Positions 1-16,279 of a stretch of DNA of 64,000 nucleotides are shown here, piece after piece. Location: NCBI GenBank assembly GCA_947487205.1, contig CANKVU010000021.1, forward strand, positions 1 to 64,000, in the 5' to 3' direction. A program made the translations under genes and the position numbers. Position 1 is the stretch's first letter, and every line of letters begins with the position of its first letter. The notes under the pieces were generated by a model, which worked only from the letters and a program-made list of their open reading frames with translations, was not told the origin of the DNA and did no database searches. The stretch is from an uncultured Paracoccaceae bacterium. Lineage in GTDB: Bacteria > Pseudomonadota > Alphaproteobacteria > Rhodobacterales > Rhodobacteraceae.

Positions 1-76
1 TCTTGCCGTGGTCCACGTGACCGATCGTCCCGATGTTCACGTGCGGCTTGTTACGTTCGAATTTCGCCTTCGCCAT
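1..76 (-). CDS. tuf: Elongation factor Tu (N-terminus only, runs off the window)
   Basis: Only the first 25 codons are inside the window. They read [20 protein letters not shown] followed by VDHGK, the EF-Tu N-terminus leading into the GTP-binding P-loop. EF-Tu delivers aminoacyl-tRNA to the ribosome. A GACAGGAGG ribosome binding site lies 5 nt upstream of the ATG. It is the last gene of the rpsL-rpsG-fusA-tuf operon and is separated from fusA by 60 nt that contain a strong hairpin. Confidence 0.95.
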
Positions 77-99
77 GATGGCCTCCTGTCGTTCGTCGG

Positions 100-123
100 G
101 CGGACCGGGGCACCCCGGTCCGC
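100..123 (-). other. Perfect 11-bp hairpin between fusA and tuf
   Basis: Bases 100-110 and 113-123 are exactly complementary (GCGGACCGGGG pairing with CCCCGGTCCGC) around a 2-nt loop. No T-run follows on the minus strand and tuf starts 24 nt later, so an intrinsic terminator is unlikely. A role in mRNA processing, stability or partial attenuation before tuf is an inference. Confidence 0.6.
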
Positions 124-136
124 GCATGCCTGACGC

Positions 137-2278
137 TTACGCGTATTTCGCCTGGATCTCTTCCGAGATGTTCTGCGGCACCGGCTCGTAATGGTCGAAC
201 TGCATCGTGAACTGCGCGCGGCCCGAGGACATCGAGCGCAGGTTGTTGATGTAGCCGAACATGTTCGCCAGCGGAACGAAGCTGTCGATGACGATCGCGT
301 TGCCGCGCGGCTCCTGGCCCTGCACCTGGCCCCGGCGCGAGGTCAGGTCGCCGATCACGTTCCCGGTGTACTCTTCCGGGGTGACCACCTCGACCTTCAT
401 GATCGGTTCCAGAAGCAGCGCGCCGGCCTTCCTGAGGCCCTCGCGCATGCACATCCGGCTGGCGATCTCGAAGGCCAGGACCGACGAATCCACGTCGTGG
501 AACTTGCCGTCGACCAGCGCCACCTTGAAGTCGATCACCGGGAAGCCCGCGATCGGACCGGAATCCATCACCGACTTGATGCCCTTCTCGACGCCGGGGA
601 CGTATTCCTTCGGCACCGAGCCACCGACGATGCGGCTCTCGAAGGAATAGCCCTCGCCCGGTTCGGTCGGCGAGATCTCCAGCTGCACCTCGGCGAACTG
701 GCCCGAGCCGCCCGACTGCTTCTTGTGGGTGTAGGTGTGGGTGATCTTCTGCTTGATCGTCTCGCGGTAGGCGACCTGCGGCGCGCCGATATTGGCCTCG
801 ACCTTGAACTCCCGCTTGAGGCGGTCGACCAGGATGTCGAGGTGCAATTCGCCCATGCCCTTCATGATCGTCTGGCCCGATTCGATATCGGTCTCGACCC
901 GGAACGAGGGATCCTCGGCGGCGAGGCGCTGCAGGCCGGCGGACATCTTCTCCTGGTCGGCCTTGGTCTTGGGCTCGACCGCGATCTCGATGACCGGATC
1001 GGGGAAGGTCATGGTCTCCAGAACGACCTGCTTCTGCGCGTCGCAGAGCGTGTCGCCCGTCGTCGTCTCCTTGAGGCCGGCCAGCGCGATGATGTCGCCC
1101 GACCCCGCCCAGTCGATCTCCTCGCGGGAATTGGAGTGCATCATCATCATCCGGCCGATGCGCTCGCGCTTGCCCTTGGTCGAGTTGATGACGGAGCCGC
1201 CCTTCTCCAGGAGGCCCGAATAGATCCGCGTGAAGGTCAGCGAGCCCACGAACGGGTCGTTCATGATCTTGAAGGCCAGGCCGGCAAACGGCTGCTCGTC
1301 GCCCGGACGCCGCTCGATGTTGCGCGTCTCGGTCTCGTCATCCGGCGCGAAGCCCATGTAGGGCGGCACGTCGAGCGGTCCCGGCAGATAGTCGATGACC
1401 GCGTTCAGGAGCGGCTGCACGCCCTTGTTCTTGAACGCCGAACCGGCCAGCACGGGAACGAAGGACAGGCTGAGCGTGCCCTTGCGGATCAGCCCGCGCA
1501 GCGTCGACTCGTCGGGCTCCTCGCCCTCGAGGTAGGCCATCATCGCGTCGTCGTCGACTTCGACGGCGGCCTCGATGAGGTTGCCGCGCCATTCGGCGGC
1601 CAGACGCTGCAGGTCCTCGCGGATGTCCTGGATCACCCAGGAGGCGCCCAGATCCTCGCCCTTCCAGACCCATTCCTTCATGGTCACGAGGTCGACGATG
1701 CCCTCGAGCTTGTCCTCGGCCCCGATCGGCAGCTGGACGGGCACGGCATTGGCGCCGGTGCGGTCCTTGATCATCTTCACGCAGTTGAAGAAGTCGGCGC
1801 CGATCTTGTCCATCTTGTTGACGAACACGATGCGCGGCACCTTGTAGCGGTCGGCCTGGCGCCAGACGGTCTCGGTCTGGGGCTCGACGCCGGCATTGGC
1901 GTCCAGCACGCAGATCGCGCCGTCGAGGACCGCGAGCGACCGCTCGACCTCGATGGTGAAGTCGACGTGACCCGGCGTGTCGATGATGTTGAAGCGGAAC
2001 CGCGCCTCTTCCGGCGTGTCGCCGTAGATGCCCGTGGAGTTCTTGCCGTCCTCGGTGCGGAACCAGAAGGTCGTGGTCGCGGCCGAGGTGATGGTGATCC
2101 CCCGCTCCTGCTCCTGCTCCATCCAGTCCATGGTGGCGGCGCCGTCATGCACCTCGCCGATCTTGTGCGACTTGCCGGTATAGAACAGGATGCGCTCGGT
2201 GCAGGTGGTCTTGCCGGCATCGATGTGGGCCATGATGCCGAAATTGCGGTAGCGGTCGAGCGAGTATTCGCGGGCCAT
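137..2278 (-). CDS. fusA: Elongation factor G
   Basis: A 713-residue translocation GTPase that moves tRNA and mRNA through the ribosome after peptide bond formation. The G1 P-loop AHIDAGKTT is at residues 17-25, DTPGHVDF and NKMD follow in the G domain, and the length is normal for bacterial EF-G. The ATG at 2278 has a GAGGA ribosome binding site. It is third in the str operon, 29 nt after rpsG and 60 nt before tuf. No unusual residue was noticed. Confidence 0.98.
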
Positions 2279-2307
2279 TTGGACAGATCCTCAGGCTAGA
2301 GTACGGG

Positions 2308-2790
<483 letters not shown>

Positions 2791-3162
2791 TTATTTCGGA
2801 CGCTTCGCGCCGTATTTGGAGCGACGCTGTTTGCGGTTCTTGACGCCCTGCGTGTCCAATACGCCGCGCAGGATATGATAGCGGACGCCCGGAAGGTCCT
2901 TCACCCGGCCACCCCGGATCAGGACCACCGAGTGCTCCTGCAGGTTGTGGCTCTCGCCCGGGATGTAGCTGATCACTTCGTAACCATTGGTCAGCCGCAC
3001 CTTGGCGACCTTCCGCATGGCCGAGTTCGGCTTCTTCGGCGTCGTCGTGTAGACGCGCGTGCAGACGCCGCGCTTCTGCGGGCAGGATTCCAGGTGCAGC
3101 GACTTCGAGCGCTTGACTTTGGGCTGCCGCGGCTTGCGGATCAGCTGCTGGATCGTTGGCAT
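2791..3162 (-). CDS. rpsL: 30S ribosomal protein S12
   Basis: A 123-residue decoding-centre protein. The start chosen is [13 protein letters not shown] at 3162; the frame stays open upstream to 3270 but those 36 codons do not resemble S12. TPKKPNS (K43) and GGRVKDLPG (K88) carry the wild-type lysines at the usual streptomycin-resistance positions. It is the first gene of the str operon, about 220 nt downstream of the predicted transcription start. Confidence 0.97.
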
Positions 3163-3391
3163 TCCGGTTTCATTCCCCGTGTTGCAACACTTGTCTGTTT
3201 CGTCTGGGGCGCGCGCGCACCCCGCTTCGTCTGTCGCGCCGCACGCGTCCGCACAACGCAAATGCCGCATGGAGGCCGAAGGCCCACGCGGCAGGTATCC
3301 AGAGGATCGGGGCCGTCAGCCCGGATCGTGACCACTTCCATCAATTTGACACCGCCCCGGAGAAACGAGTCTCCGTCAGCGCGGTTGGGGC
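3163..3391 (-). other. Long 5' leader of the str operon
   Basis: About 220 nt lie between the promoter at 3392-3420 and the rpsL start. An extension of the rpsL frame covers part of it, but its composition (Cys- and Ala-rich, no S12 similarity) argues against translation. I see no recognisable riboswitch. It may hold leader structures for translational control, which is an inference from length only. Confidence 0.45.
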
Positions 3392-3420
3392 CGTATAAAG
3401 GTCGTGCCCGGGTGTGTCAA
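3392..3420 (-). promoter_or_regulatory. Sigma70-type promoter of the rpsL-rpsG-fusA-tuf operon
   Basis: Reading the minus strand, a perfect TTGACA (3415-3420) is followed after 17 nt by TATACG (3392-3397). Hexamers and spacing are near consensus. The predicted start near 3385 gives a leader of about 220 nt before rpsL, and no other gene lies between. Confidence 0.75.
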
Positions 3421-3796
3421 CAGCACCCCCTGCCGTTGGCGCGGCGCGCGTCACCGCCCAAGCCGCGCGGATCCCGTCAATCCCGTCAACGACTTGGCAC
3501 GAGTGTCGGCCGCCGCGCCACCCCGTAATCGGTGCCGGGGACCCGGCCGCGCCCCGATCGCGCCCGCAGGCCACGCCCACGGAGAATCCCTTCCGCGCCC
3601 TCCCGGGGGAGCGGACCCGACCGCCCGGCCCGAGCGCGGCGTCATCCGGTTGCGGCGGGTGACCGGGACGATCGCGCGCGAGGTCGAGGCGAGGATGCGG
3701 CACCGCTCCGGGGGTCGCCGATCGGCACCGGCGCGCAATTCCCAGGGCTCAGCGGCTCGGTTCCGGGCCGGTCCCGGCGCTGGCGGCGGCCATTCA
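3421..3796. other. GC-rich stretch without a convincing gene
   Basis: Between the str promoter and the decayed gene at 3862-5041 there are about 375 bases with open frames in several registers. None has a plausible start, ribosome binding site and family resemblance. It is probably non-coding or decayed DNA. Confidence 0.5.
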
Positions 3797-3865
3797 TCAG
3801 GACCGGGCGGCGTAGCGGCCGCGGCGGGCGTCGATCTCTTCCTTCGTGAAGGTGATGTCGCTCAT
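3797..3865 (-). pseudogene. 22-codon remnant coupled to the decayed esterase
   Basis: A 22-codon frame, MSDITFTKEEIDARRGRYAA plus RS, starts with an ATG that overlaps the last in-frame stop of the decayed gene upstream (ATGA at 3862-3865). The sequence looks like the N-terminus of a larger acidic/basic helical protein cut short by a stop. I do not recognise the family. It could also be a real micropeptide, but its position at the end of a decayed gene favours a remnant. Confidence 0.35.
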
Positions 3866-5041
3866 GGTGTCCCACCTCGCACAGGGTTGCGCACCAGCCA
3901 CGCGCGGGCCAGGTCCGCAGCTTCGACCCGCCCGGGGCCGGCGGCAATGGCATGCGCCGCGAGCGCGGTGCCCCCTCGGCCCGGCGCGGGGCGAGGCCGC
4001 CATGGGGGTCCGCGTCCCCGGTCATGCTCAGGATCTGCCGGCCCGACAGGTCCGCCAGCGGCAGCGCCGCCAGCGGCATCGGCGCCCGCAACTGGAATGC
4101 CCGCCGGATCAGGCCGGGAGGAAGCTCCGCCATTGCGGCGGCGAAACTCGCGCCGTTCGAACAGCCCAGCACCGTGATGTCGGCGGCCGCCTGGCCAAAG
4201 GCGCGCACCGCCTCGGGCAAGAACGCATGGAACGCCGCCGCCCCGGCGCGGGCGTTCGGGCCTGTGGAGGCGGTGCGTGACGGGCAGATCCCGCCGGGCG
4301 ATCCTCTCCTCGCCCGGCAGGGCGAAGTGCGGCAGCACGACGCGCAGGTCGCAGGCGCGCGCCGCCCCCTTTCCCAGGTGGTCGGGGTCGTCCGCCGCCA
4401 TGCCCGGCCCGTCGGTCGCGTGTTCGATCAGGAGGCCGGCGGGCTCGCGAACATGGAGCGAGAGGAAGTACCTGCGGTCGTGCACCGTGGCCAGCCCGTC
4501 GCGGCCCGGCAGCGCCAGCCGCATCCCGCCCAGCGCCTCGGCGTCGGCGCCACGGAAGGCCACGTGGTCGACGATGCCGGTGCCGGGCAGGCCCGCGATG
4601 AAGCCGGACGCGTCGCGGACATCCACCGCGTCGGGCAGCGGCGCCGCGGCGGCAGCATCGGCGCCCACCAGCCTGACGATGATGCGGTCGGGATCCTTCA
4701 GGCGCAGCACCCGCTCGCCGAATTCCCGCGACGGTCCCTCGACCGGCACTCCGGCCGCGAGCGCCCGCGTCGGCCAGGTGCCGATCGCGTCGCGCGGCGC
4801 CGCCAGGCCGATTTGGCGACCCGACCCTGTCCGACGCGCCCCGGTGCGCCGGCCTCCCACACCAGAGGCGTCGCGAGCGAGCCCGGGCCCGCGCCCCGAT
4901 CGCCCCAGATCAGGTGCAGCTGTTCGCCATCCTCCTAGCCGCCCGTCCGCCTGACCAGGCGCAGCCCGAGGACGCGTCATGGAAATCGACATTGGCCTGG
5001 ACCCGCCGCGTGATCGCCGTGACGTGGTGGATGCCGGACAT
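3862..5041 (-). pseudogene. Decayed ring-cleaving (VOC/glyoxalase-fold) dioxygenase fused to a carboxylesterase
   Basis: The gene starts with a good ribosome binding site (GAGGAAGG) and MSGIHHVTAITRRVQANVDF, the classic N-terminus of VOC ring-cleaving dioxygenases, then changes frame. About 4800-4920 encodes QLHLIWGDRGAGPGSL in a second frame. About 4370-4790 encodes AGVPVEGPSREFGERVLRL and YFLSLHVREPAGLLIEHATD, the family's C-terminal part, in a third. From about 4220 to 4020 another frame gives VLGCSNGASFAAAM and LSGRQILSMTGDADPHGG, the nucleophile elbow and acid region of a phospholipase/carboxylesterase. The last stretch (ALAAHAIAAG...DLARAWL) is in yet another frame. At least four frame changes and an apparent deletion of the esterase N-half mean it cannot make the full protein. 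Known relatives of this fusion act on hydroquinone-type rings; that is family knowledge, not shown here. Confidence 0.8.
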
Positions 5042-5198
5042 CGTCTCGCCCTTCCTCGGGCCCTGTGCCGACATATCTAAGGTCATACCCCGCGGCCCCA
5101 ACGGCCTGGTCCCGCCCCCCGCCGTCGCGGCGTCCGAACGCCGTGCCGCTGGCCGGCGCCACGGCCGGGCCTAGGATCGAGGCGAAAGGAGACCTTCG

Positions 5199-5471
5199 AT
5201 GCGCTGGAATCCCGCCCTCGCCCCTGGCTGCCCCCACGCGGTCGGCATCGCCGGGCGGAAATCTCGACCCGGGCGGATGATGCCGTTCCGCCCGATGGCG
5301 CGGGGCGGGCCGACGCTGAACCGGCCCAGGGACATCTGGTGGACCGTCGTCGCCTCCCGCCCTGACGGGGTCGAGCAGGCCGGGGAGGAATCGCGCGCCG
5401 CCCGGCGGGGCCGGGGCCAGTTCGACCTGCCGGGCGGCGACCGGGACGGGCTGATCCCGCTGCCCGATTGA
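5199..5471 (+). CDS. Small hypothetical protein, doubtful
   Basis: A 90-residue frame with an excellent ribosome binding site (AAAGGAG, 8 nt before the ATG) and third-position GC near that of neighbouring genes. The product (MRWNPALAPGCPHAVGI...NRPRDIWWTVVASRPDG...) has no signal peptide or membrane segment and matches no family I recognise. The middle is arginine- and glycine-rich, as read-through of a shifted frame often is. It lies 79 nt upstream of the Hen1-like gene on the same strand. It may be a real partner gene, a lineage-specific protein or a frameshifted remnant. Confidence 0.35.
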   Translation: MRWNPALAPGCPHAVGIAGRKSRPGRMMPFRPMARGGPTLNRPRDIWWTVVASRPDGVEQAGEESRAARRGRGQFDLPGGDRDGLIPLPD

Positions 5472-5550
5472 GCCCGCGCCGCCGCCCCGCGCCCCGGCTC
5501 GCCCGGGCCCCGCGCATGACCGTCCCCCGCCCCGTCCGGGAGGGCGCGGC

Positions 5551-6180
5551 ATGACGACCTGGATGCACGAGGAACGCCTCGCGGCCGTCCTGGGCGCGGT
5601 CGTCGACAGCGGCGCGGCGAGCGTGCTCGATCTCGGCTGCGGCGACGGCGACCTGCTGCTGCGCCTCGCGGCCCTGCCCGGCATCGACCGCGTGCTGGGG
5701 GTCGATCTGTGCCCGGTCGCGCTCGACCGGCTGCGCGCGCGCCTGGCCGCGCGGGGCGTCACCGCGCGGGTGGATCTGATCCACGGCTCGGTGACCTTGC
5801 CCGTGGCGGAGCGGTCGCGCTTCGACTGCGCCGTGCTGGTCGAGACGATCGAGCATCTCGATCCCGACAGCCTGTCGGGGCTGGAGCGCGCCGTCTTCGC
5901 GGCGATGCGTCCGCCGACCGTGATCATCACCACACCGAACGCCGAGTTCAACGCGCTTCTGGGCGTGCCCGCCCATCGACGGCGCCATCCCGGCCACCGC
6001 TTCGAATGGTCCCGCGCGCGCTTCGGCCGCTGGGCGGGCGGCGTGGCGGCGCGCGCGGCCTACGACGTGGCCTGCCACGACATCGCGGGACGCCATCCCG
6101 ACCTCGGCGGCGCAAGCCAGATGGCGGTGTTCCGGGCGCGCGGCGCACCCCCCGCGCGCCCGCCCCGGTCGGGGCCGTGA
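5551..6180 (+). CDS. hen1: Free-standing Hen1-type RNA 3'-terminal ribose 2'-O-methyltransferase
   Basis: A 209-residue SAM-dependent methyltransferase. Motif I is DLGCGDG (27-33) with the acidic strand-2 residue in GVDLCP (50-55). The Hen1 signature is complete: VETIEH (E98, E101, H102), then TTPNAEFN (127-134), then HPGHRFEWSR with H146 and H149, then GASQMAVF near the end. In HEN1/Hen1 enzymes, two Glu and two His bind the divalent metal that holds the 3'-terminal 2'-OH and 3'-OH, so this protein should methylate RNA 3' ends. Bacterial Hen1 of the Pnkp/Hen1 RNA repair system is about 465 residues, with an N-terminal domain that contacts Pnkp; that domain is absent here and no Pnkp is in the window. 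A GGGAGGG ribosome binding site precedes the ATG. rlmE follows on the same strand. Confidence 0.88.
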   Translation: MTTWMHEERLAAVLGAVVDSGAASVLDLGCGDGDLLLRLAALPGIDRVLGVDLCPVALDRLRARLAARGVTARVDLIHGSVTLPVAERSRFDCAVLVETIEHLDPDSLSGLERAVFAAMRPPTVIITTPNAEFNALLGVPAHRRRHPGHRFEWSRARFGRWAGGVAARAAYDVACHDIAGRHPDLGGASQMAVFRARGAPPARPPRSGP

Positions 6181-6269
6181 CCGCCCCGCCATGGCGGCCG
6201 CGCGCATTCCGCGATGACAGCCGCGCCCCGGCCCACTAGATCATGGTCACGCAACGGCGCGAGGACCTC

Positions 6270-6971
6270 ATGGACAGGCGGAGCAGCGGACGCGGGCAGC
6301 GCGACCTGACGGTAAAGGTGAAGACGGCCCGGGGGCGGAAATCGTCCTCGACGCGATGGTTGCAGCGGCAGCTGAACGACCCTTACGTCAAGCGCGCCAA
6401 GGAAGAGGGTTTCCGCGGCCGCGCCGCCTTCAAGATCATCGAGCTCGACGACAGGTACCGCTTCCTCGTCCCCGGCGCGCGGGTCGTCGATCTGGGATGC
6501 GCCCCCGGGGGCTGGTGCCAGGTCGCCGCCGCGCGCGTGAACGCGGCCGGGGACGCGGCGGGCAAGCCGCGCGGCTACGTGCTCGGGATCGACCTGCAGG
6601 AGGTCGATCCGGTGCGCGGCGCCGACATCCACCAGCTCGACTTCCTCTCCGAGGGGGCGGACGCGCAGATCAAGGCGTGGCTCGGCGGGACGGCCGATGT
6701 CGTCATGTCCGACATGGCTGCCGCGTCCTCGGGTCACAAGCAGACCGACCACCTGCGGATCGTCGCGCTCTGCGAGGCGGCCGCGCAGCTGTCCTTCGAC
6801 GTGCTGGAGCCGGGCGGCACCTTCGTCGCCAAGGTCCTGCAGGGCGGAACCGAGGCCGGTCTTCAGGCGGAGCTGAAGCGCCGCTTCGACGGCGTGGCCA
6901 ACGTCAAGCCGCCCGCAAGCCGCAAGGACAGCGCCGAGAAGTTCGTCGTCGCCCGGGGTTTCCGCGGCTGA
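6270..6971 (+). CDS. rlmE: 23S rRNA (uridine-2'-O)-methyltransferase RlmE (FtsJ/RrmJ)
   Basis: Methylates the ribose 2'-O of a uridine in the A-loop of 23S rRNA on the 50S subunit. The 233-residue product shows the FtsJ fold: [11 protein letters not shown] with the first catalytic Lys, [15 protein letters not shown] for SAM binding, MSDMA with the catalytic Asp, FVAKVLQGG with the second Lys, and [19 protein letters not shown] at the end. A lysine/arginine-rich N-terminal extension is typical of alphaproteobacteria. I chose the ATG at 6270 because GAGGA lies 6 nt upstream. An in-frame ATG at 6243 has no ribosome binding site. It is 89 nt after the Hen1 gene. Confidence 0.95.
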
Positions 6972-7112
6972 TCCACGCCCCCGGATCCGCGCGCGGACCG
7001 CCCCGGCGGCGGTCGCGCGCCCCCGCCCGACCCTCCCGCGTCGCCAGATCGCGCCCCCCAGCCCCGAACGGCCCGGCATCGGCGGATGCCCCCCGCCGGG
7101 CAGGGATCGCGC

Positions 7113-7141
7113 TTGACTCCACGGCGCTGCCGATCAATTGT
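7113..7141 (+). promoter_or_regulatory. Candidate promoter of the catabolic operon
   Basis: TTGACT (7113-7118) and AATTGT (7136-7141) are 17 nt apart, followed by an AT-richer stretch (7131-7162) unlike its surroundings. The start codon of the first gene is at 7178, giving a leader of about 30 nt. The -35 box is good and the -10 box is weak. Confidence 0.45.
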
Positions 7142-7149
7142 CCGGACAT
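7140..7149. promoter_or_regulatory. Candidate operator palindrome TGTCCGGACA
   Basis: A perfect 10-bp palindrome overlaps the expected transcription start of the operon. A related half-site (ATGGAC) follows at 7150-7155. The operon encodes its own GntR-family regulator, so this is a natural candidate operator. That assignment is inference. Confidence 0.4.
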
Positions 7150-7177
7150 ATGGACTTTTAATCGGGCGGAGGATCGG

Positions 7178-7684
7178 ATGCGCAAAGTCGGGCCAAACAG
7201 GTTCAGGGGCGAGATCGGGCTGTATTTCGAGGATTTCGAGGTCGGCCACGTCTACGAGCACCGGCCGGGCCGGACGCTGACCGATCAGGACAACATCCAG
7301 TTCTCGCTGATGACGATGAACTACCACCCGATGCATTGCGACGCCCATTTCGCCGCCCAGAGCGAATTCGGAAAGCTGCTGATCAACAGCGGCCTGACGG
7401 TCGCGACCGTGCTCGGCATGTCCGTGCCCGAGGTCTCGGGCAAGGCGGTGGCCAATCTCGGCTGGGAGGAGATCCGGCTGATGGCGCCGGTCTTCGCCGG
7501 GGACACGATCTATGCCGAAAGCGAGGTGCTGGACAAGCGCGAGAGCAGATCGCGCCCCGGACAGGGGATCGTCAAGGTCCGCACGCTGGGCCGCAAGCAC
7601 GACGACACCGTCTTCATGAGCTTCGAGCGCACCGCCCTCATCAAGAGCCGGGCGGCCGACGAGGAGACGGCCACGAATTACTGA
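7178..7684 (+). CDS. MaoC-family (single hotdog) enoyl-CoA hydratase, probably for a C5 or branched acyl-CoA
   Basis: A 168-residue single-hotdog protein with the MaoC motif: GRTLTDQDNIQFSLMTMNYH then PMHCDAHFA, where the Asp/Asn and His of the hydratase pair lie. It is followed by FGKLLINSGLTVATVLGMSV and LMAPVFAGDTIYAESEVLD. Relatives that sit next to CitE-like lyases and CoA-transferases hydrate itaconyl-CoA or mesaconyl-CoA to citramalyl-CoA, or analogous methyl-branched substrates. It is first in the operon, with GGAGGATCGG just upstream of the ATG. The family is firm; the exact substrate is inferred from neighbours. Confidence 0.85.
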   Translation: MRKVGPNRFRGEIGLYFEDFEVGHVYEHRPGRTLTDQDNIQFSLMTMNYHPMHCDAHFAAQSEFGKLLINSGLTVATVLGMSVPEVSGKAVANLGWEEIRLMAPVFAGDTIYAESEVLDKRESRSRPGQGIVKVRTLGRKHDDTVFMSFERTALIKSRAADEETATNY

Positions 7685-7733
7685 GATCGATCGCGGCGGT
7701 CCCGACCGGCCGCCCAGAGGGAGGAGAGACGAC

Positions 7734-8726
7734 ATGAAGAGCACACGACTTGCGGCCGTGTTCGCGGCCGGCACCATGCTGGCGGGCGCCGCCCCGGCCG
7801 AGGACCTGGTCCTGCCGAGCGAGGTCGCCGCGACCCACTGGAAGACCGAGTACATGGACCGCTTCGCCGACGAGGTGGGCCAGGCGACGGGCGGCGACAT
7901 CGACGTGAAGGTCTTCCCCGCCGGCCAGATCTATTCCGACCAGGCCGCGCTCGCCGCCCTGGGGACCGGCGCCGTGCAGATGGTATGGCCCGTCTCCGTG
8001 CGGCTGGAGACGGTCGCCCCCGCGACGGGCGTCATCAACCTACCCTTCGCCATCAGCGACGAGATGATGGCCGATGCCTGCATGAAGGCCGGCGTGCGCG
8101 ACCTTCTGACCGGGGAATTGCAGAATGCCGGCCTGCGGGTCCTGGGGCTGCTGCGGACGGCGGACCTCTACTTCGTCTTCTCCGACCGGCAGGTCGCCTC
8201 GATGGAGGATCTGGAGGGCGCCAAGGTCCGCGTCACCGGCGGGCGCGTGGTGCAGGACACGATGCGCGCGCTCGGCATCTCGCCGGTCTCGATGGCCGCC
8301 TCGGAAATGTCCACCGCGCTCAGCCAGGGCGCCATCGACGGCGTGTTCACCTCGCCGGCCGGCTGGGCCGAGATGATCGGGATGACCGGCCAAAATGCCT
8401 TCTACGTTCCCGGCTTCTCGATCCTGACCTACGCGATCGTGGTCGACGACGCCTGGTTCCAGGCCCTGCCCGAGGACCAGCGCGCGGCGATCCAGGACAG
8501 CATCGACGGCATCGCCGAGACCCAGTGGAGCGAAGCGATCGAGAAGGACGCCGAGGCGCTGGAGAAGATGACCGCCCAGGGCGCCACGCTCGTGACCGCC
8601 GATGCCGAGCAAATCGCGGCCTGGAAGGAGCTGACCGGCCAGACCTCGGCGAGCTTCTCCGAGGCCTATCCCGAGGCCGCGCAGGCCTTCCAGGATCTGG
8701 AGGACCGGTGTGGCGTCTCCGGCTGA
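7734..8726 (+). CDS. TRAP transporter periplasmic solute-binding subunit (DctP family)
   Basis: A 330-residue periplasmic protein with a signal peptide (positively charged start, hydrophobic core, likely cleavage after AGAAPA near residue 22). The DctP fold shows in FADEVGQATGGDIDVKVFPA and in LEGAKVRVTGGRVVQDTMRA, which contains the Arg that normally salt-bridges the carboxylate of the ligand. It captures an organic acid and delivers it to the membrane subunits encoded next. GAGGAGAG precedes the ATG. The downstream permease gene starts inside its last codons. The ligand is probably the dicarboxylate degraded by this operon. Confidence 0.92.
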   Translation: MKSTRLAAVFAAGTMLAGAAPAEDLVLPSEVAATHWKTEYMDRFADEVGQATGGDIDVKVFPAGQIYSDQAALAALGTGAVQMVWPVSVRLETVAPATGVINLPFAISDEMMADACMKAGVRDLLTGELQNAGLRVLGLLRTADLYFVFSDRQVASMEDLEGAKVRVTGGRVVQDTMRALGISPVSMAASEMSTALSQGAIDGVFTSPAGWAEMIGMTGQNAFYVPGFSILTYAIVVDDAWFQALPEDQRAAIQDSIDGIAETQWSEAIEKDAEALEKMTAQGATLVTADAEQIAAWKELTGQTSASFSEAYPEAAQAFQDLEDRCGVSG

Positions 8727-9270
8727 CGGCAACGGCCCCGGCCCGGCGCCCCGCCCGCCGCTCTGGGACCGGTTCGAGCGCGGCCCCCTCACCGCGCTCG
8801 CCACGATCATGTTCCTCGCCGCGACGCTCGTCATGCTGGTCGAGGCGGGCGGCCGCGCCTTCTTCGACCACAGCTGGTTCTGGGCCGAGGAGGCCGTGCG
8901 GTTCCTGATCGTCTGGGCCTTCTTCCTCACCCTCGGCGCCGCCGGCGCCGGCGGCTACCACATCCGCAGCGACCTCGCCGTCCGGCTCCTCGGCCGCCGC
9001 CTCAGGGTGGTGGCCGGGGCGCTGGCCGCCCTTATCGGCCTCGGGTTCTCCGCCATCCTGTTCTGGGGCGCGATCCCGCAGGTGCGGCGCTACTACACGA
9101 TGGGGATGCTGTCGGAATCGAACCTCGAACTGCCGATGTGGCTGGTCTTCATGGCGATGCCGATCGGGGCGCTCCTGTTCGGAGTGTTCTACCTGCGCCT
9201 GCTGGCCCGCGCGGTCCGGGGACAGGATCCGTTCGGCCAGGACGACGACGGCGTCGCGGGGAAGTTCTGA
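8710..9270 (+). CDS. TRAP transporter small permease (DctQ family)
   Basis: A 186-residue protein with four hydrophobic segments (about residues 22-45, 58-80, 95-118, 140-165), the usual DctQ layout. It starts with GTG at 8710 and overlaps the binding-protein gene by 17 nt. GGAGGA, placed a few nt upstream inside that gene, supports this start. It forms the membrane complex with the large permease and is powered by a sodium gradient. Confidence 0.9.
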   Translation: MASPADGNGPGPAPRPPLWDRFERGPLTALATIMFLAATLVMLVEAGGRAFFDHSWFWAEEAVRFLIVWAFFLTLGAAGAGGYHIRSDLAVRLLGRRLRVVAGALAALIGLGFSAILFWGAIPQVRRYYTMGMLSESNLELPMWLVFMAMPIGALLFGVFYLRLLARAVRGQDPFGQDDDGVAGKF

Positions 9271-9273
9271 GCC

Positions 9274-10542
9274 ATGATCCTCGCCGCAGCCCTCGTCCTC
9301 ATCCTGTGCCTCCTGGCGGTCGGCGCCCATGTCGCCGCCGTGCTGGGTCTGGTGACGGCCGCGATCGTCCTGTCGGTCAGCGGCGTCCCGGCCACCGTGA
9401 TCGCGCAGACGGCCTTCTCCTCGGTCAATTCCTACCCGCTGATCGCCATCCCGATGTTCATCCTGGCCGGCAACCTGATGATGCGCGGCCAGATCGCCGC
9501 GCTGATGATCGACTTCGTGGGCTCGCTGGTGCGCGCCGTCCGCGGCGGCCTGGCGCTGACGGTGCTGACCGCCTCGGTGTTCTTCGCCGCCGTCTCCGGC
9601 TCCTCGGTGGGATCGGCGGCCGCGATCGGGCGTTCCACCGTCGCCGGGCTGCGGGAGGAGCGCTACCCGCCGCGCTTCGCCGCCGCCATCGTCGCGGTGG
9701 GGGGAACGCTCGGCCTCATGATCCCGCCGTCGCTGGGCTTCATCCTCATCGGCTCCATCGTCGGCCTGCCCATCGACCGGCTCTTCATCGCCGGCCTGCT
9801 GCCCGGGATCATGGAGGCGGCCCTCCTGTCCTGCGCCACGTTCTGGCTCAGCCGCCGGGGCGGATACGGCGCCAAGGCCGCGGCGCCGGACTGGTCCGGC
9901 TTCGCCCGGCTCCTGCCGCGGACCCTGCCCGCGCTCCTGATGCCGGTGCTGGTCCTGGGCGCGATCTATACCGGCTTCATGACGCCGACCGAGGTCTCGG
10001 CCTTCGCGGCGGCCTATGCCGCGCTCCTGTGCCTCGTCGTCTACCGCTCGGTGGACCTGCGGGGGATCTGGGCCACCGCGCGCGAAAGCCTGCTGCAGAC
10101 CTCGATGATCTTCGCCGTCGTGATGGGCGGCAGCCTCCTCGGGTTCATCCTGGCGCGGATGGGCGTGTCGGCGCAGCTCGTCACCACGCTCGAGGATGCG
10201 GGGCTGACATGGTGGCAGTTCCTGATCGTGGTCAACCTGGTCCTGCTGGTGATGGGCATGTTCCTCGACGGGATCGCGCTCATCGTGCTGACCGCGCCGC
10301 TCCTGTTCCCGATGGCGCAGGCCCTGGGCATCGACCCGGTCCATTTCGCCGTGATCATGGTCGCCAACGTGGAGATCGCGACCCTGACGCCGCCGATCGG
10401 GCTCAACCTCTTCGTGATGAGCGGCATCGCCCGCATCCCCGTCCACGAGGTCGCCCGCGGCGTGCTGCCCTTCTATGCCGTGCGCCTCGTGGGGCTGGCG
10501 CTCATCTCGTTCGTGCCGGCGATCTCGCTGGCGCTCGTCTGA
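9274..10542 (+). CDS. TRAP transporter large permease (DctM family)
   Basis: A 422-residue membrane protein of about 12 helices. Typical DctM features are PLIAIPMFILAGNLMMRGQ, the Gly/Ser-rich SVFFAAVSGSSVGSAAAIG loop, LGLMIPPSLGFILIGSI and LTPPIGLNLFVMSGIA. It is the transport channel of the tripartite carrier, begins 3 nt after the small permease stop, and is followed 16 nt later by the MmgE/PrpD gene. Confidence 0.95.
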   Translation: MILAAALVLILCLLAVGAHVAAVLGLVTAAIVLSVSGVPATVIAQTAFSSVNSYPLIAIPMFILAGNLMMRGQIAALMIDFVGSLVRAVRGGLALTVLTASVFFAAVSGSSVGSAAAIGRSTVAGLREERYPPRFAAAIVAVGGTLGLMIPPSLGFILIGSIVGLPIDRLFIAGLLPGIMEAALLSCATFWLSRRGGYGAKAAAPDWSGFARLLPRTLPALLMPVLVLGAIYTGFMTPTEVSAFAAAYAALLCLVVYRSVDLRGIWATARESLLQTSMIFAVVMGGSLLGFILARMGVSAQLVTTLEDAGLTWWQFLIVVNLVLLVMGMFLDGIALIVLTAPLLFPMAQALGIDPVHFAVIMVANVEIATLTPPIGLNLFVMSGIARIPVHEVARGVLPFYAVRLVGLALISFVPAISLALV

Positions 10543-10558
10543 CCCCAGGGAGGCTCCC

Positions 10559-11974
10559 ATGAAGGATACCACCGACCCCCGCCCGACCGAGCCGATGGCC
10601 GTCCGGCTGGCGGATTTCGCCGGCGCGCTCCGCCCCGACGACATCCCCGCCGAGGTGGCCGAGCGCGCCCGGCTCCTGATGCTCGACGCCCTCGGGATCG
10701 CGCTCGCCTCGACCCAGTACGATTTCGCGCACCGCGCCCATGCCGCGCTGTGCGACCTCGGCGCGGGCGGCCCCCGCCGGGCGATCGGGTTCGGCACCGC
10801 GCTCCAGGCGCGCGACGCGGCGATGCTGAACGGCCTCCTGATCCACGGGCTCGATTACGACGACACCCATACCGCCGGCGTGATCCACGCCACCGCCTCG
10901 ATCCTGCCCGCCGCGCTCACCATGGCGCTGGAGACCGGCGCCGCGGGAGAGGAGATGCAGACCGCCTACATCGCCGGAATGGAGGTCGCGACCCGGCTCG
11001 GCGCCGTCGCCCGCGGCGGCTTCCACCAGGTCGGCTTCCACCCCACGGGCGTCATCGGCATCTTCGGGGCCGTGCTCGCCGCCGGGCGGCTGCGCGGCCT
11101 GACCGCGGCCCAGCTCGCCGCCGCCCAGGGCATCGCCCTTTCCATGGCCGGCGGATCGCTCGAATTCCTGCAGGACGGCGCCTGGACGAAACGGCTGCAT
11201 CCCGGCTGGGCCGCGCAGGCCGCGATCACCGCCGTCGCCATGGCGCGCCGCGGCTTCGTGGCGCCCAGGGCCGTCTACGAGGGCCGTTTCGGCGTCTTCA
11301 ACGCCTATCTGGGCGAGCGGGCGGCGGGACTCGACCTGTCCGTCGCCACCGCCGCCCTCGGCCAGACATGGGAGGTCATGAACGTCGCGGTGAAGCCGAT
11401 GCCGGCCTGCCACTTCACCCATGCCTGCGCCGATGCCGCGGTCGCGCTCCACGACGCCCACGGCCTGTCGGCGGACGACATCGCCGAGGTCGTGGCCCTG
11501 GTCCCCGACGAGGTGATCAAGACCGTCTGCGAACCGCGCGAGACCAAGATCCGGCCCCAGAACAGCTACGACGCGCAATTCTCCATTCCCTACGCCGTGG
11601 CCTCGGGGCTCCTGCGCGGCCGCTTCGGCCTGCCGGACCTGGAGCCCGCCGCCTATGCCGCGCCCGAGGCGCTGGCCTTCATGCCGAAGGTCCGCCACGA
11701 GGCCGACCCGCACTCCCGCTTCCCGACCTACTACTCGGGCGAGGTCGTGGTGCGGACGACCGACGGCCGCGAGCTGCGCCACCGCGAGGACGTGAACCGC
11801 GGCGCCGCCGACCGCCCCCTGAGCGCCGCCGAGATCGCCGCGAAATTCACCGAGAACGCCTGCATGGCCCTGCCCCCCGAGCGCGCCGCGCGCCTGCGCG
11901 ACGCGGTGCTGGGGCTCGACCGGGCCGGCGACCTGGCCCCGCTCGAACGCCTGCTCGCCGGGCAGGCCAACTGA
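10559..11974 (+). CDS. MmgE/PrpD-family protein (2-methylcitrate dehydratase / cis-aconitate decarboxylase fold)
   Basis: A 471-residue protein spanning the whole family, with HGLDYDDTHTAGVIHATASI at about residue 97, GFHPTGVIGIFGAVLAAGRL, and MPACHFTHACADAAVALHDA. Members dehydrate 2-methylcitrate, decarboxylate cis-aconitate to itaconate, or epimerise iminodisuccinate. All act on small di- or tricarboxylates. The chosen ATG at 10559 has AGGGAGG upstream; the frame stays open further upstream but overlaps the permease gene. In this operon it could convert the imported acid into the substrate of the CoA-transferase. The reaction itself cannot be read from sequence. Confidence 0.85.
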   Translation: MKDTTDPRPTEPMAVRLADFAGALRPDDIPAEVAERARLLMLDALGIALASTQYDFAHRAHAALCDLGAGGPRRAIGFGTALQARDAAMLNGLLIHGLDYDDTHTAGVIHATASILPAALTMALETGAAGEEMQTAYIAGMEVATRLGAVARGGFHQVGFHPTGVIGIFGAVLAAGRLRGLTAAQLAAAQGIALSMAGGSLEFLQDGAWTKRLHPGWAAQAAITAVAMARRGFVAPRAVYEGRFGVFNAYLGERAAGLDLSVATAALGQTWEVMNVAVKPMPACHFTHACADAAVALHDAHGLSADDIAEVVALVPDEVIKTVCEPRETKIRPQNSYDAQFSIPYAVASGLLRGRFGLPDLEPAAYAAPEALAFMPKVRHEADPHSRFPTYYSGEVVVRTTDGRELRHREDVNRGAADRPLSAAEIAAKFTENACMALPPERAARLRDAVLGLDRAGDLAPLERLLAGQAN

Positions 11975-11986
11975 GGAGACAGCACC

Positions 11987-13138
11987 ATGAACGACATGCA
12001 GGAACAGGATCGCATGATCCTCGACTCCGTCCACCGCTTCTGCGAGGCCGAGATCGACCCGCAGGTCCACGAACTCGAGGCGCGCGACGAATATCCCGCC
12101 GCGATCGTGGAGAAGATGAAGGAGATGGGCCTCTTCGGCTGCATCATCTCCGAGGAATACGGCGGCCTCGGCCTCTCCACCGAGGTCTATTCCCGCATCA
12201 TCGAACGGATCTCGCGCTCGTGGATGTCGGTCTCGGGGATCATCAACTCCCACCTCATCATGGCCGCGGCGGTGCAGCGCGCCGGCACCGACGCGCAGAA
12301 GGCCGAATTCCTGCCCCGCTTTGCCACCGGCGAGCTGCGCGGCGGCATCGGGCTGACCGAACCCGACGCGGGCACCGACCTGCAGGCGATCCGCACCACC
12401 GCGCGGCGCGACGGCGACGATTACGTGGTCAACGGCACCAAGACCTGGATCACCAATTCCAAGTACGGCAATTGCATCGCGCTGCTGGTCAAGACCGACC
12501 CCAAGGCCGAGCCGCGCCACCGCGGCATGTCTCTCCTGCTGGCGGAGAAGGGCCCCGGCTTCAACGTCGCCCGCAAGCTCGAGAAGCTCGGCTATCGCGG
12601 CATCGACACCTGCGAGCTGGAATTCAAGGATTACCGCGTCCCCGCCGACCGGCTGATCGGCGGCGCGGAGGGACGCGGCCTCCAGCAGATCCTGTCGGGG
12701 CTGGAACTCGGCCGCATCAACGTCGCCGCGCGCGGCGTCGGCGTGGCACAGGCCGCGCTCGACGAGGCGACGGCCTACAGCCAGACCCGCAAGACCTTCG
12801 GCAAGCCGATCTGCGAGCACCAGGCGATCCAGCTGCAGCTGGGCGAGATGGCCACCCGGACCGAGGCGGCCCGCCTCCTGACGCTGTCGGCGGCGCGCGC
12901 CTACGACCGCGGCGAGCGCTGCGACATGGAGGCGGGAATGGCGAAATACGCCGCCACCGAGGCGGCGCTCGAAAACGCCATCGCCGCGATGCGGATCCAT
13001 GGCGGCTACGGCTATTCCAAGGAATACAACGTCGAGCGACTCTATCGCGACGCGCCCCTCCTGACCATCGGCGAGGGCACCAACGAGCTTCAGCGCATCA
13101 TCATCGCCAAGCAGCAGATCGAAAGGAACCCGGCATGA
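11987..13138 (+). CDS. Acyl-CoA dehydrogenase
   Basis: A 383-residue FAD enzyme with the standard layout: N-terminal helices, ELRGGIGLTEPDAGTDLQAI and KTWITNSKYGNCIALLVKTD in the beta domain, and a C-terminal helical domain with RKTFGKPICEHQAIQLQLGE and the FAD/CoA signature GGYGYSKEYNVERLYRDAPL. The Glu of IGEGTNE is the usual catalytic base. Family members oxidise saturated acyl-CoA to enoyl-CoA, and next to a MaoC hydratase a methylsuccinyl-CoA-like substrate fits. A gAGGAGA ribosome binding site is present. It overlaps the CoA-transferase gene by ATGA. Confidence 0.93.
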   Translation: MNDMQEQDRMILDSVHRFCEAEIDPQVHELEARDEYPAAIVEKMKEMGLFGCIISEEYGGLGLSTEVYSRIIERISRSWMSVSGIINSHLIMAAAVQRAGTDAQKAEFLPRFATGELRGGIGLTEPDAGTDLQAIRTTARRDGDDYVVNGTKTWITNSKYGNCIALLVKTDPKAEPRHRGMSLLLAEKGPGFNVARKLEKLGYRGIDTCELEFKDYRVPADRLIGGAEGRGLQQILSGLELGRINVAARGVGVAQAALDEATAYSQTRKTFGKPICEHQAIQLQLGEMATRTEAARLLTLSAARAYDRGERCDMEAGMAKYAATEAALENAIAAMRIHGGYGYSKEYNVERLYRDAPLLTIGEGTNELQRIIIAKQQIERNPA

Positions 13139-14313
13139 CCCTGCCACTCGACGGGCTGCGCGTCCTCGCGGTCGAGCAATACGGCGCCGGCCCCTTCGGC
13201 ACCCAGCACCTCGCCGATCTCGGCGCCGAGGTCATCAAGATCGAGAACGCCGCGCATGGCGGCGACGTGGGCCGGCTCGTCGGCCCCCACTTCTTCGGCG
13301 AGGGCGACAGCCACTTCTTCCAGGCCTTCAACCGCAACAAGCGCTCGATCACCCTCGACCTGAAATCCGACGCGGGCCGCGATGCGCTCCATGCCCTCGT
13401 GCGCGACGCCGACGCCGTCTTCAACAACCTGCGCGGCGACCTGCCCGCCAAGCTCGGCCTCGACTACGCCGCCCTGGGAGAGGTGAAGCGCGACATCGTC
13501 TGCTGTCACCTCTCGGCCTACGGGCGCGACGGCGAGCGGGCCGACTGGCCGGGCTACGACTACCTCATGCAGGCCGAGGCGGGCTATCTCTCCGTCACCG
13601 GCGAGCCGGGGCAGCCGCCCTCCCGCTTCGGCCTCTCGATCGTCGACATGATGACCGGCACCATGTCCGCGCTGGCACTCGTCTCCGCCGTGCTGGGCGC
13701 GCGGCAGACCGGCCAGGGGCGCGACATCGACACCTCGCTCTACGAAGTGGCGATGCACAACCTCAACTACCTCGCCACCTGGTATCTGAACGAGGGCGTC
13801 AATACCGGCCGCCACCCGCGCTCGGCCCACCCCTCCCTCACGCCCTCGCAACTCTACAAGACCGGCGACGGCTGGGTCTTCATCATGTGCAACAAGGAGA
13901 AGTTCTGGGCCGTGCTCTGCGACGCCATCGGCAAGCCGGAGTGGAAGACGGATGACCGCTTCGGCGACTTCAAGGCCCGCCTCGCCCATCGCGACGAGCT
14001 GACGGAGGCGCTCGACGCCGTGCTCCTGACCGACACGACCGAGGCCTGGATGGGCAAGTTCGGCGGCCGCGTCCCCGCCTCGCCGGTCCACGACATCGGC
14101 TCCGCCCTCGACGCCCCGTTCGCCCGCGCGCGCGGCACCATCGCCCGGGTGCCGCACCCCACGCGGGGCACCATCGGAACCGTCGCCTGCCCCATCCGCT
14201 GTCCCGGAGAGACGCCGCCGCTACGTCCCGGACCGGCGCTCGGGGCCGACAACGACGACATCCTCGGGGCAATCGGTATGCTGCGGGCGGACCGGAACGA
14301 AACCGTGGGGTGA
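13135..14313 (+). CDS. Family III (CaiB/BaiF) CoA-transferase
   Basis: A 392-residue CoA-transferase. The N-terminus is LDGLRVLAVEQYGAGPFGTQ, followed by HLADLGAEVIKIE, NRNKRSITLDLKSDAGRDAL and PGYDYLMQAEAGYLSVTGEP. The catalytic Asp that forms the aspartyl-CoA anhydride/thioester intermediate is D171 in SIVDMMTGT. GQGRDIDTSLYEVAMHNL follows. It moves CoA, usually from succinyl-CoA, to a free carboxylic acid and so activates the operon's substrate. The ATG overlaps the dehydrogenase stop (ATGA), indicating translational coupling. Confidence 0.92.
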   Translation: MTLPLDGLRVLAVEQYGAGPFGTQHLADLGAEVIKIENAAHGGDVGRLVGPHFFGEGDSHFFQAFNRNKRSITLDLKSDAGRDALHALVRDADAVFNNLRGDLPAKLGLDYAALGEVKRDIVCCHLSAYGRDGERADWPGYDYLMQAEAGYLSVTGEPGQPPSRFGLSIVDMMTGTMSALALVSAVLGARQTGQGRDIDTSLYEVAMHNLNYLATWYLNEGVNTGRHPRSAHPSLTPSQLYKTGDGWVFIMCNKEKFWAVLCDAIGKPEWKTDDRFGDFKARLAHRDELTEALDAVLLTDTTEAWMGKFGGRVPASPVHDIGSALDAPFARARGTIARVPHPTRGTIGTVACPIRCPGETPPLRPGPALGADNDDILGAIGMLRADRNETVG

Positions 14314-14318
14314 ACACG

Positions 14319-15080
14319 ATGGACAGAGAGACGCGGTTCGGAGAGCGCACCCGCTACGCCGCCCTCGCCGAGGCCATTCTGGAGGACATCCAGTCGGGGC
14401 GCTATCCGGTGGGCAGCCTGCTGCCCCCGGAAGTGGATCTGAGCCGCGAATTCGACGTCTCGCGCCATACCGTGCGCGAGGCGCTGCGCCGGCTGGTGGA
14501 TCTGGGGCTCCTGTCGCGCCAGGCCGGCGTCGGCACCACCGTGCGGACGGACCGGATCGCGTCCCGCTACGTCCAGATGGGCGAGGACGCGACCGCGCTC
14601 ATGCGCTACGTGCGGGACGTGAGCCTGCGGATCACCGCCACCGACGACGCGATCGCCACGGGCGACCTGGCGCGGCTCATCGGCTCGCCCGAGGGCAAGG
14701 CCTGGCTGCACCTGTCGGGGGAGCGGTTCATGGGCGACGACCCGACGCCCATCGCCCTGACCGAGATCTGGATCGCCCGCTCCTATCGCGGCGTCGTGGA
14801 CGGCGTCACCACCCCCTCCGAGCCGATCTATTCCCTGATCGAGCGCCGCTACGGGCTGACGACGGTGGAGATCCGGCAGAACATCGAGGCGGTGAGCCTG
14901 CCGCCCGCCGCGACGGCGCGGCTGGGCGTCGAGCCGGGCGCGCCGGGGCTGCGCATCACCCGGACCTACGTCGCCGCCTCGGGCGACATCTACGAGACGG
15001 CCATCTCGCTGCATCCGGGCGACCGCTTCAGCTATTCGAACACGTTCCGCGTCGAGTCGAAGACGGCGCACGGATCATGA
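14319..15080 (+). CDS. GntR-family transcriptional regulator (HutC/UTRA subfamily)
   Basis: A 253-residue regulator. The N-terminal winged helix-turn-helix is YAALAEAILEDIQSGRYPVG ... LLPPEVDLSREFDVSRHTVR EALRRL. The C-terminal UTRA ligand-binding domain includes GERFMGDDPTPIALTEIWIA and ends GDRFSYSNTFRVE. It likely senses a pathway intermediate and represses this operon, perhaps at the palindrome at 7140-7149. I chose ATG at 14319 (GGGGTGA upstream). A GTG at 14310 overlapping the previous stop is an alternative that would add three residues. Confidence 0.9.
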   Translation: MDRETRFGERTRYAALAEAILEDIQSGRYPVGSLLPPEVDLSREFDVSRHTVREALRRLVDLGLLSRQAGVGTTVRTDRIASRYVQMGEDATALMRYVRDVSLRITATDDAIATGDLARLIGSPEGKAWLHLSGERFMGDDPTPIALTEIWIARSYRGVVDGVTTPSEPIYSLIERRYGLTTVEIRQNIEAVSLPPAATARLGVEPGAPGLRITRTYVAASGDIYETAISLHPGDRFSYSNTFRVESKTAHGS

Positions 15081-16279
15081 GGTCGACCTGGGGCATCCTC
15101 GCCGTCACCCTCGCCATCCAGGCCATGATCTCGGCCGCCGCGCTGGCCGGCCCGGTGCTCGCCCCCGACGTGGCGGGCCGGATCGGCACGCGCGCGGCCC
15201 TGGTCGGGGTGCAGGTCGGGATCATCTACGGGGCCGCCGCCCTCGCCAGCCTGGGATCGGGGCGGCTGATCCACGGCCGCGGCGCCGTCCGCACCAGTCA
15301 GCTCGCCCTCGTCCTGGCCGCGGCGGGATTGTCGCTGTCGCTCGCCGGAACGGTCGCGGCGATCGCGGGCGGGGCCGTGCTGATCGGCCTCGGCTACGGC
15401 CTCGTCACGCCGGCCAGCTCCCACCTCCTGGCGCAGAGCACGCCCGCCCACCGGATGGGGTTCGTCTTCTCGGTGAAGCAGACCGGGGTGCCGCTCGGCG
15501 GCATCCTCGCCGGGCTCGCGCTGCCGCCGATCGCGCTGGCGCTCGACTGGCGCTGGGCGGTGGGCCTCGTGATCGCGCTCTGCCTCGGCGTGGCGCTGGG
15601 CGCCCAGCCGGTGCGCGCCGCGCTCGACGGCGACCGCATGCCGGGGCGGCGGGCCTCCTCGGGCGCGAACCCGCTCCGGACGCTGCTCGCCCAGCCCGCG
15701 CTCCGGGGGCTGGCGCTCACCTCCTTCGTCTTCGCGGCCATGCAGCTCATCCTGATGGGCTACCTCGTCACCTTCCTGACCGAGGGGCGCGGCCTGTCGC
15801 TGGCGCTCGCCGGCCTCATCATGGCGATGACGCAGGGCGCCGGCGTCGGCGGCCGCCTCCTCTGGGGGTGGAGCGCCGACCGGTTCGCCTCGGCCCGCCA
15901 GGTCCTGACCCTGCTGGCCGCCCTGTCGGCCCTCTGCGCGGGCATCTTCGCCCACGAGGCGGCGGGCGGCGGCGTCGTCCTGCTCGGCGCGGTGTCGGCG
16001 GTCTTCGGCGCCGCCGCGATCGGCTGGAACGGCGTCTTCCTGGCCGAGGTGGCCCGCATCGCCCCGAGCGGCACCGTCGCCGCCGCCACCGGGGCCGCGC
16101 TCTTCATGACCTATGCCGGCGTCGTGGCCGGTCCGCCGGCCTTCTCGTACCTGGCCACGCGGTTCGGCTACGGGCCGGCCTTCACCGCCGCGAGCGTGAT
16201 GATGACGCTCATGGCCCTCGCGCTTCTCGTCGGGGGCCGTCCCCGGCCCTCGCTCCGCTGCAGGGAAACCCCGCCATGA
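15077..16279 (+). CDS. Major facilitator superfamily transporter
   Basis: A 400-residue protein with 12 predicted helices and the MFS pattern of two six-helix halves, for example GLGYGLVTPASSHLLAQSTP and FSVKQTGVPLGGILAGLALP in the first half. GWSADRFASARQ in the second is the loop motif. It overlaps the GntR gene (ATGA) and the CitE-like gene (ATGA), so it belongs to the operon. It is a second carrier besides the TRAP system and might export a by-product or import a related acid. Confidence 0.88.
   Translation: MRSTWGILAVTLAIQAMISAAALAGPVLAPDVAGRIGTRAALVGVQVGIIYGAAALASLGSGRLIHGRGAVRTSQLALVLAAAGLSLSLAGTVAAIAGGAVLIGLGYGLVTPASSHLLAQSTPAHRMGFVFSVKQTGVPLGGILAGLALPPIALALDWRWAVGLVIALCLGVALGAQPVRAALDGDRMPGRRASSGANPLRTLLAQPALRGLALTSFVFAAMQLILMGYLVTFLTEGRGLSLALAGLIMAMTQGAGVGGRLLWGWSADRFASARQVLTLLAALSALCAGIFAHEAAGGGVVLLGAVSAVFGAAAIGWNGVFLAEVARIAPSGTVAAATGAALFMTYAGVVAGPPAFSYLATRFGYGPAFTAASVMMTLMALALLVGGRPRPSLRCRETPP

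Follow-up and report, generated by a model that had tools for sequence, protein, structure and literature searches.

The window, a stretch of 64,000 nucleotides from contig CANKVU010000021.1 of an uncultured Paracoccaceae bacterium, contains a gene for a short Hen1-type methyltransferase (Table 1). A sequence-only reading had placed this gene among the Hen1 RNA 3′-end methyltransferases. The assignment was borne out by a match to the bacterial Hen1 profile (TIGR04074, bacter_Hen1; E = 3.2e-54, 184 bits) and by phmmer searches of solved structures, in which Hen1 proteins ranked on top (3jwh, E = 9e-38; 3jwj, E = 1e-37), followed by the human (5wy0) and plant (3htx) proteins. Pfam returned general methyltransferase domains only. 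The same reading described a protein without the N-terminal domain, and this description also holds: residues 4–195 correspond to profile positions 265–461 of 462, and an HMM of the N-terminal half of Hen1, built from 13 full-length proteins, gave no match within window positions 4001–8000. The score of the window protein lies below the curated TIGR04074 cut-off of 340 bits for full-length equivalogs, as expected of a protein in which the N-terminal half is absent. These results confirm that the gene encodes the methyltransferase domain of the Hen1 family, the catalytic half alone.

Table 1. Features of the short hen1 locus, with positions counted along the window
Feature	Position	Strand	Description
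ORF upstream of hen1	5199-5471		90 aa; sub-threshold Pirin_C match, E = 0.045
Short Hen1 methyltransferase gene	5551..6180	+	209 aa, ATG start, intact ORF
Presumed SAM-binding motif DLGCGDGD, residues 27-34	5629..5652	+	D27, L28, G29, C30, G31, and G33 invariant in 44/44
Presumed metal-ligand motif ETIEH (E98, E101, H102)	5842..5856	+	Aligns with E..EH of 3jwh/3jwj; invariant in 44/44
TTPNAEFN motif, residues 127-134	5929..5952	+	T127, T128, P129, N130, and N134 invariant in 44/44
H149 (presumed fourth metal ligand) and R-F-E-W	5995..6009	+	H149, F151, E152, and W153 invariant in 44/44
rlmE (FtsJ family)	6243-6971		Downstream of hen1, gap ~60 nt; FtsJ E = 5e-51

The metal-binding and signature residues noted from the sequence were found in place in an alignment of 44 sequences, comprising the window protein, 42 of the 80 relative loci described below, and one plasmid relative. 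E98, E101, H102, and H149 are invariant in all 44 and align with the E..EH and H of crystallized bacterial Hen1; we take these positions to be the Hen1 metal ligands, and DLGCGDGD is presumably the SAM-binding motif. The AlphaFold2 model of the window protein (pLDDT 93) was compared with the PDB using Foldseek, and ranks 1–11 were all Hen1 (TM by query length 0.77–0.83, 29–35% identity). Judged from the alignment and the overall fold of the model, the predicted metal site is Hen1-like.

Four ORFs tested in the region upstream of hen1 (3642–5471) gave no Pfam match over the cut-off, the sole trace being the weak Pirin_C similarity listed in Table 1, and this interval may have decayed or been rearranged. 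A search of 5300–6400 for a sigma-70-like promoter or a terminator found neither. The rlmE gene that follows hen1 in the window is near hen1 in none of 80 other loci (the best 80 of 151), and in five of the seven same-genus loci readable in the right direction, rlmE is preceded by a different gene, an exopolyphosphatase by eye (six reverse-orientation loci were left out of this comparison). A functional link between hen1 and rlmE is therefore unsupported.

The source genome (4.18 Mb in 82 contigs, 99.8% complete) contains a single Hen1 copy; a second match is weak and partial (E = 2e-4). The best match to the Pnkp profile TIGR04075 in this genome scores 23 bits against a cut-off of 750. The genome-wide check for Pnkp and full-length Hen1 that had been proposed thus found Hen1 once and Pnkp nowhere above the cut-off, so that a full Pnkp/Hen1 operon of which this gene would be a silent duplicate is ruled out. 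A survey was also made of 394 genomes of the family, in which Hen1 was called at E ≤ 1e-15 and classed as full length when it scored over the family cut-off. Hen1 was found in 31 genomes, 10 with the full-length protein and 21 with just its methyltransferase half (in one of the latter, G356, as two fragments). Pnkp exceeded its cut-off in all 10 full-length-Hen1 genomes vs. none of the 21 with short Hen1. Sub-cut-off Pnkp matches in six of these 21 genomes (48–67 bits, inside positions 161–403) were read as unrelated phosphatases. The ATP-dependent RNA ligase profile PF09414, which may miss the divergent bacterial Rnl, matched none of the 21 short-Hen1 genomes and one of the 10 Pnkp genomes. 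The Piwi profile PF02171 was over its cut-off in none of 64 genomes, including the 21 with short Hen1, and an Argonaute or piRNA-like partner is therefore unsupported; one control genome (G022) gave a sub-cut-off match. The proposal of a free-standing and apparently active Hen1 that would function outside the Pnkp/Hen1 pathway is supported across the lineage by the distribution of Pnkp.

Plasmid records with a Hen1 match numbered 19. Among the six inspected, five have an annotated full-length hen1, and in four of these five a polynucleotide kinase-phosphatase is annotated within the fetched stretch; the fifth, a Rhodococcus plasmid with an incomplete gene table, has no annotation directly downstream of hen1. 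On a Deinococcus ficus plasmid (L186:2727-7585), three genes lie between hen1 and pnkp, two with a nucleotidyltransferase domain and one hypothetical, with a 4-nt overlap from each gene to the next.

Relatives of the window gene were obtained from a scan of genome contigs, and the best 80 of 151 were taken as loci. Their products are 50–70% identical to the window protein and 191–279 aa long from the start of the match, some having extra in-frame starts upstream. The N-terminal-half HMM matched 25 of 137 loci (the 13 building sequences included), and 0 of the 112 short loci, in a set where some genomes are present twice. In a quick, unrooted Hen1 tree calculated without bootstrap (120 rows after duplicate removal), a single branch with an SH-aLRT value of 98 separates 96 short from 24 full-length rows. 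The short forms therefore group together, a point for which a tree had been suggested, and short Hen1 is a lineage of its own rather than a truncated copy. The lineage extends beyond the family to Rhizobiales, other Alphaproteobacteria, Thiocapsa (Chromatiaceae), and a Comamonas plasmid. At E ≤ 1e-20, Hen1 was present in 12 of 385 genomes sampled from the class and 11 of 398 from the phylum; six and five of these, respectively, are short forms by the N-terminal-half HMM, with the source genome counted in both samples.

Nine pairs of relatives gave dN/dS values of 0.08–0.21 by a crude, simple counting method, from which it follows that the short hen1 gene of the lineage is under purifying selection. 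Three pairs that include the window copy gave 0.23–0.48 at greater protein divergence and are less clear. Within the genus, short hen1 is an accessory gene because a full match occurs in only one of 14 genomes, that of the source organism; 10 others have weak partial methyltransferase matches (E 1e-6 or worse). This pattern points to acquisition of hen1, or to its loss in other members.

Clustering of neighboring ORFs revealed one recurrent immediate partner of short hen1, termed c1. Its product of ~228 aa consists of an N-terminal CxxC...CxxC segment, labeled a zinc ribbon because of how its cysteines are arranged and of a Pfam hit below threshold, and a Methyltransf_23 domain. A c1 match lies no more than ~1.2 kb upstream of hen1 in 39 of the 80 loci (best 80 of 151), and in 35 of the 80 the stop codon of c1 and the start codon of hen1 lie in an overlap of exactly 4 nt; when only the 75 whose upstream sequence exceeds 700 nt are considered, c1 is upstream in 36. 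Culturable relatives with c1 and hen1 together include Maritimibacter sp. HL-12, Rhodovulum steppense, and Roseinatronobacter thiooxidans (loci L056, L103, and L110). At the genome level (c1 called at E ≤ 1e-30, with at most seven first-look candidates scored per genome), c1 was found in 14 of the 394 family genomes, and 12 of those 14 have short Hen1. Expressed by host, c1 occurs in 12 of 21 genomes with short Hen1 vs. 2 of 373 without it (Fisher p = 1e-15, uncorrected for relatedness), and in none of the 10 with full-length Hen1. Ten of the 12 shared genomes have c1 next to hen1; the two genes are ~120 kb apart in G315 and on separate contigs in G366. The gene immediately before c1 in G366 was identified by eye as mnmA-like, coding for a tRNA thiolase (L173:9694-11474, reverse strand). 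A lone c1 relative, ~46% identical, is found beside peptide ABC transporter-like genes in G148, a family genome without a Hen1 match (L168:9606-10238, forward strand). The c1 model retrieved sugar C3′-methyltransferases (TcaB9, MtmC, and KijD1) at Foldseek ranks 1–18, with E values of 1e-8 to 5e-7, TM scores (query length) of 0.58–0.71, and 16–19% identity, a likeness at the level of fold only. These sugar C3′-methyltransferases carry zinc.

The association is a preference and not an obligation, since 9 of the 21 short-Hen1 genomes have no c1, the tree (76 labeled rows, 36 of them with c1) requires a minimum of 15 changes in whether c1 is linked to hen1, and c1 and Hen1 distances are weakly correlated over all rows. 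Co-divergence was assessed in 32 of the 35 coupled loci, those with a c1 frame of at least 190 aa. The correlation over all 32 was r = 0.23 (138 of 2000 permutations as high), and a second calculation gave r = 0.17 (449 of 3000). Omission of one row, L118, in which c1 is broken and out of frame, gave r = 0.61 (0 of 5000). Because this dropped row decides the outcome, we do not lean on the correlation. The same nearest relative was recovered for c1 and Hen1 in 11 of the 32 loci. The source genome is among those that lack c1: none of the 7 candidates scored, out of 31 from the first look, reached E ≤ 1e-30, and tblastn detected neither c1 nor c4 (below) in positions 1–16000 of the window. The lineage has c1 as its preferred neighbor, a feature beyond the reach of the sequence-only reading, and the window copy stands without it.

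A further gene, c4, encodes a spermidine-synthase-like protein and is located upstream of c1 in some loci; most loci do not have it. Its likeness to aminopropyltransferases is weak (E = 3e-4). In L105 and L116, c4 is coupled straight to hen1, and L079 was dropped from this group on finding that the C-terminus reads as c1. Conserved c4 (E < 1e-100) occurs in 4 of the 21 short-Hen1 genomes vs. 0 of 43 controls, and weaker matches (E 1e-24 to 1e-29) occur in five more short-Hen1 genomes, the source genome included, and in two controls. Some copies of c4 are shortened, and c4 is for this reason secondary. The clusters represented in at least 8 of 81 loci are Hen1 (together with its reverse-strand reading), c1, c4, and Usp/SulP, the remainder being transporter genes (ABC, TRAP, MFS) by eye; no recurrent biosynthetic gene set was seen among them.

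Classical bacterial Hen1 (3jwg, 3jwh, 3jwi, and 3jwj) has the same methyltransferase domain, fold, and metal residues as the short form, and the window protein is 34–35% identical to the crystallized domains. The short form differs from it in the absence of the N-terminal half and of Pnkp over the cut-off (21 of 21 genomes), in its place on the opposite side of the tree branch, and in the consensus of its signature, which reads TTPNAEFNxLLGVP in the short-form alignment. The N-terminal half of the classical protein activates the Pnkp ligase, according to Wang et al. 2015 (PMC4411300). The exception in that paper is the authors' own Pnkp1–Rnl–Hen1 complex, a heterohexamer whose hen1 gene is unlinked to its repair partners. 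The Hen1 of this complex (4xrp) contains a related methyltransferase domain (E = 4e-11 against the window protein); relative to that 436-aa protein, the window domain stands alone, and it is closer to the classical bacterial domain. A related small-RNA 3′ methyltransferase domain is also found in animal and plant HEN1/HENMT1 (5wy0, 4xcx, and 3htx), which are more distant from the window protein than classical bacterial Hen1 is; no Piwi domain exceeded the cut-off in any short-Hen1 genome of the 21 searched. Tkaczuk et al. 2006 (PMC1397878) had six HEN1 homologues of bacterial origin (Firmicutes, Cyanobacteria, and Actinobacteria) and urged work on short forms. Free-standing proteobacterial Hen1 and the c1 pairing are not mentioned in the available part of PMC12155479. 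Neither is described among the literature matches listed, a search that covered titles and the beginnings of abstracts and had most subscription journals and supplements outside its scope. The published descriptions of bacterial Hen1 that were found place its work in complexes for RNA repair.

In Hen1 chemistry, the last nucleotide is held by its 2′,3′-diol on a metal ion that two Glu and two His coordinate, and SAM donates the methyl group to the 2′-OH. We propose with a probability of roughly 0.6 that the window gene encodes a metal- and SAM-dependent Hen1-type RNA 3′-terminal ribose 2′-O-methyltransferase, belonging to a catalytic-domain-only lineage that acts outside Pnkp repair. Glu98, Glu101, His102, and His149, together with the metal ion, would bind the free 2′,3′-diol at the RNA 3′ end, and the enzyme would methylate the 2′-OH using SAM. 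The resulting 2′-O-methyl mark would make the RNA end resistant to nucleases, cyclization, or ligation. In the many species where c1 accompanies Hen1, c1 may provide the recognition of the substrate or carry out a second methylation. The lineage should not work in Pnkp/Hen1 repair because the N-terminal half is absent from the protein and Pnkp is absent from the genomes searched. Within the reach of these searches, which found no Pnkp, PF09414, or Piwi over cut-off in any of the 21 short-Hen1 genomes, the mark lies outside the known repair and guide-RNA routes. We favor free RNA 3′-end methylation that protects the ends or prevents them from being processed in other ways.

Methylation of the 3′-terminal 2′-OH is a central stabilizing mark on plant and animal small RNAs. 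Retention of the catalytic site in a bacterial lineage that has dispensed with the repair machinery implies 3′-end methylation of RNA outside repair, and the c1 pairing provides a concrete lead toward the substrate of short Hen1. A more elaborate version, which we put forward as speculative, is that c4, c1, and Hen1 form an undescribed proteobacterial operon for SAM-dependent RNA 3′-end modification, in which c1 recognizes or pre-modifies the terminus and Hen1 adds a 2′-O-methyl cap. If that version is true, bacteria would possess a Pnkp-independent route to mark or protect RNA ends.

The main rival places c4, c1, and Hen1 in a small-molecule pathway, where they would act on a metabolite resembling a nucleotide or a sugar, with Hen1 methylating a ribose hydroxyl on it. 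The metal site of Hen1 holds a cis-diol and is compatible with a nucleotide-like small molecule. The proximity of the c1 model to sugar C3′-methyltransferases in fold and the faint aminopropyltransferase likeness of c4 favor such a pathway, and Tkaczuk et al. 2006 (PMC1397878) group the catalytic domain of HEN1 most closely with methyltransferases of small molecules. However, the window protein keeps all of the Hen1 metal and signature residues and its first 11 fold matches are exclusively Hen1, while c4 is missing from most loci and a recurring biosynthetic gene set was not seen; we consider this pathway unlikely.

RNA repair in trans is rather improbable. Short Hen1 would then protect ribotoxin-cut RNA that is healed by other enzymes such as RtcB and general phosphatases, from scattered genes like those of Pnkp1–Rnl–Hen1. 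That complex provides a precedent for a Hen1 encoded far from its partners (PMC4411300), but its Hen1 is 436 aa (4xrp chain C), more than twice the length of the short form, and the short-Hen1 genomes yielded neither Pnkp over the cut-off nor PF09414 (0 of 21 for each, the latter profile having matched 1 of 10 Pnkp genomes). The gene could instead be a relic in the source genome, acquired and left without a working pathway. The lack of the usual neighbor c1 in this genome and of c1 and c4 in window positions 1–16000, the single full match among 14 same-genus genomes, and the disturbed-looking neighborhood, with its lone Pirin_C trace, all fit this explanation. It is nevertheless the least probable of the three, given a reading frame that is intact across 209 codons with every invariant residue kept and a solitary state that is common, eight other short-Hen1 family genomes also being without c1. 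The preferred reading remains an RNA 3′-end methyltransferase acting outside Pnkp repair.

Phage origin and membership of a known defense family were considered and rejected. No match at E ≤ 1e-5 was found among 50,697 phage records, four viral-contig loci match partial stretches only (26–33% identity), and a family of phage tRNA methyltransferases in PHROGs was matched weakly (E = 2.7e-8). The best PADLOC match is mad2 (E = 7e-13, protein residues 7–126), which was read as a shared methyltransferase core because c4 and c1 match mad2 as well.

A universal-stress-protein (Usp) gene is located less than 10 kb from short hen1 in 15 of 80 loci (best 80 of 151; L054, L055, L063, L065, L066, L069, L075, L078, L085, L093, L095, L099, L102, L105, and L118), and a SulP-type anion transporter gene lies beside 14 of the 15. 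The recurrence of Usp/SulP may reflect a shared mobile stress island. A SulP–Usp pair is also present ~2 kb from short hen1 on the Comamonas plasmid, which comes from another class (L132:1612-3967).
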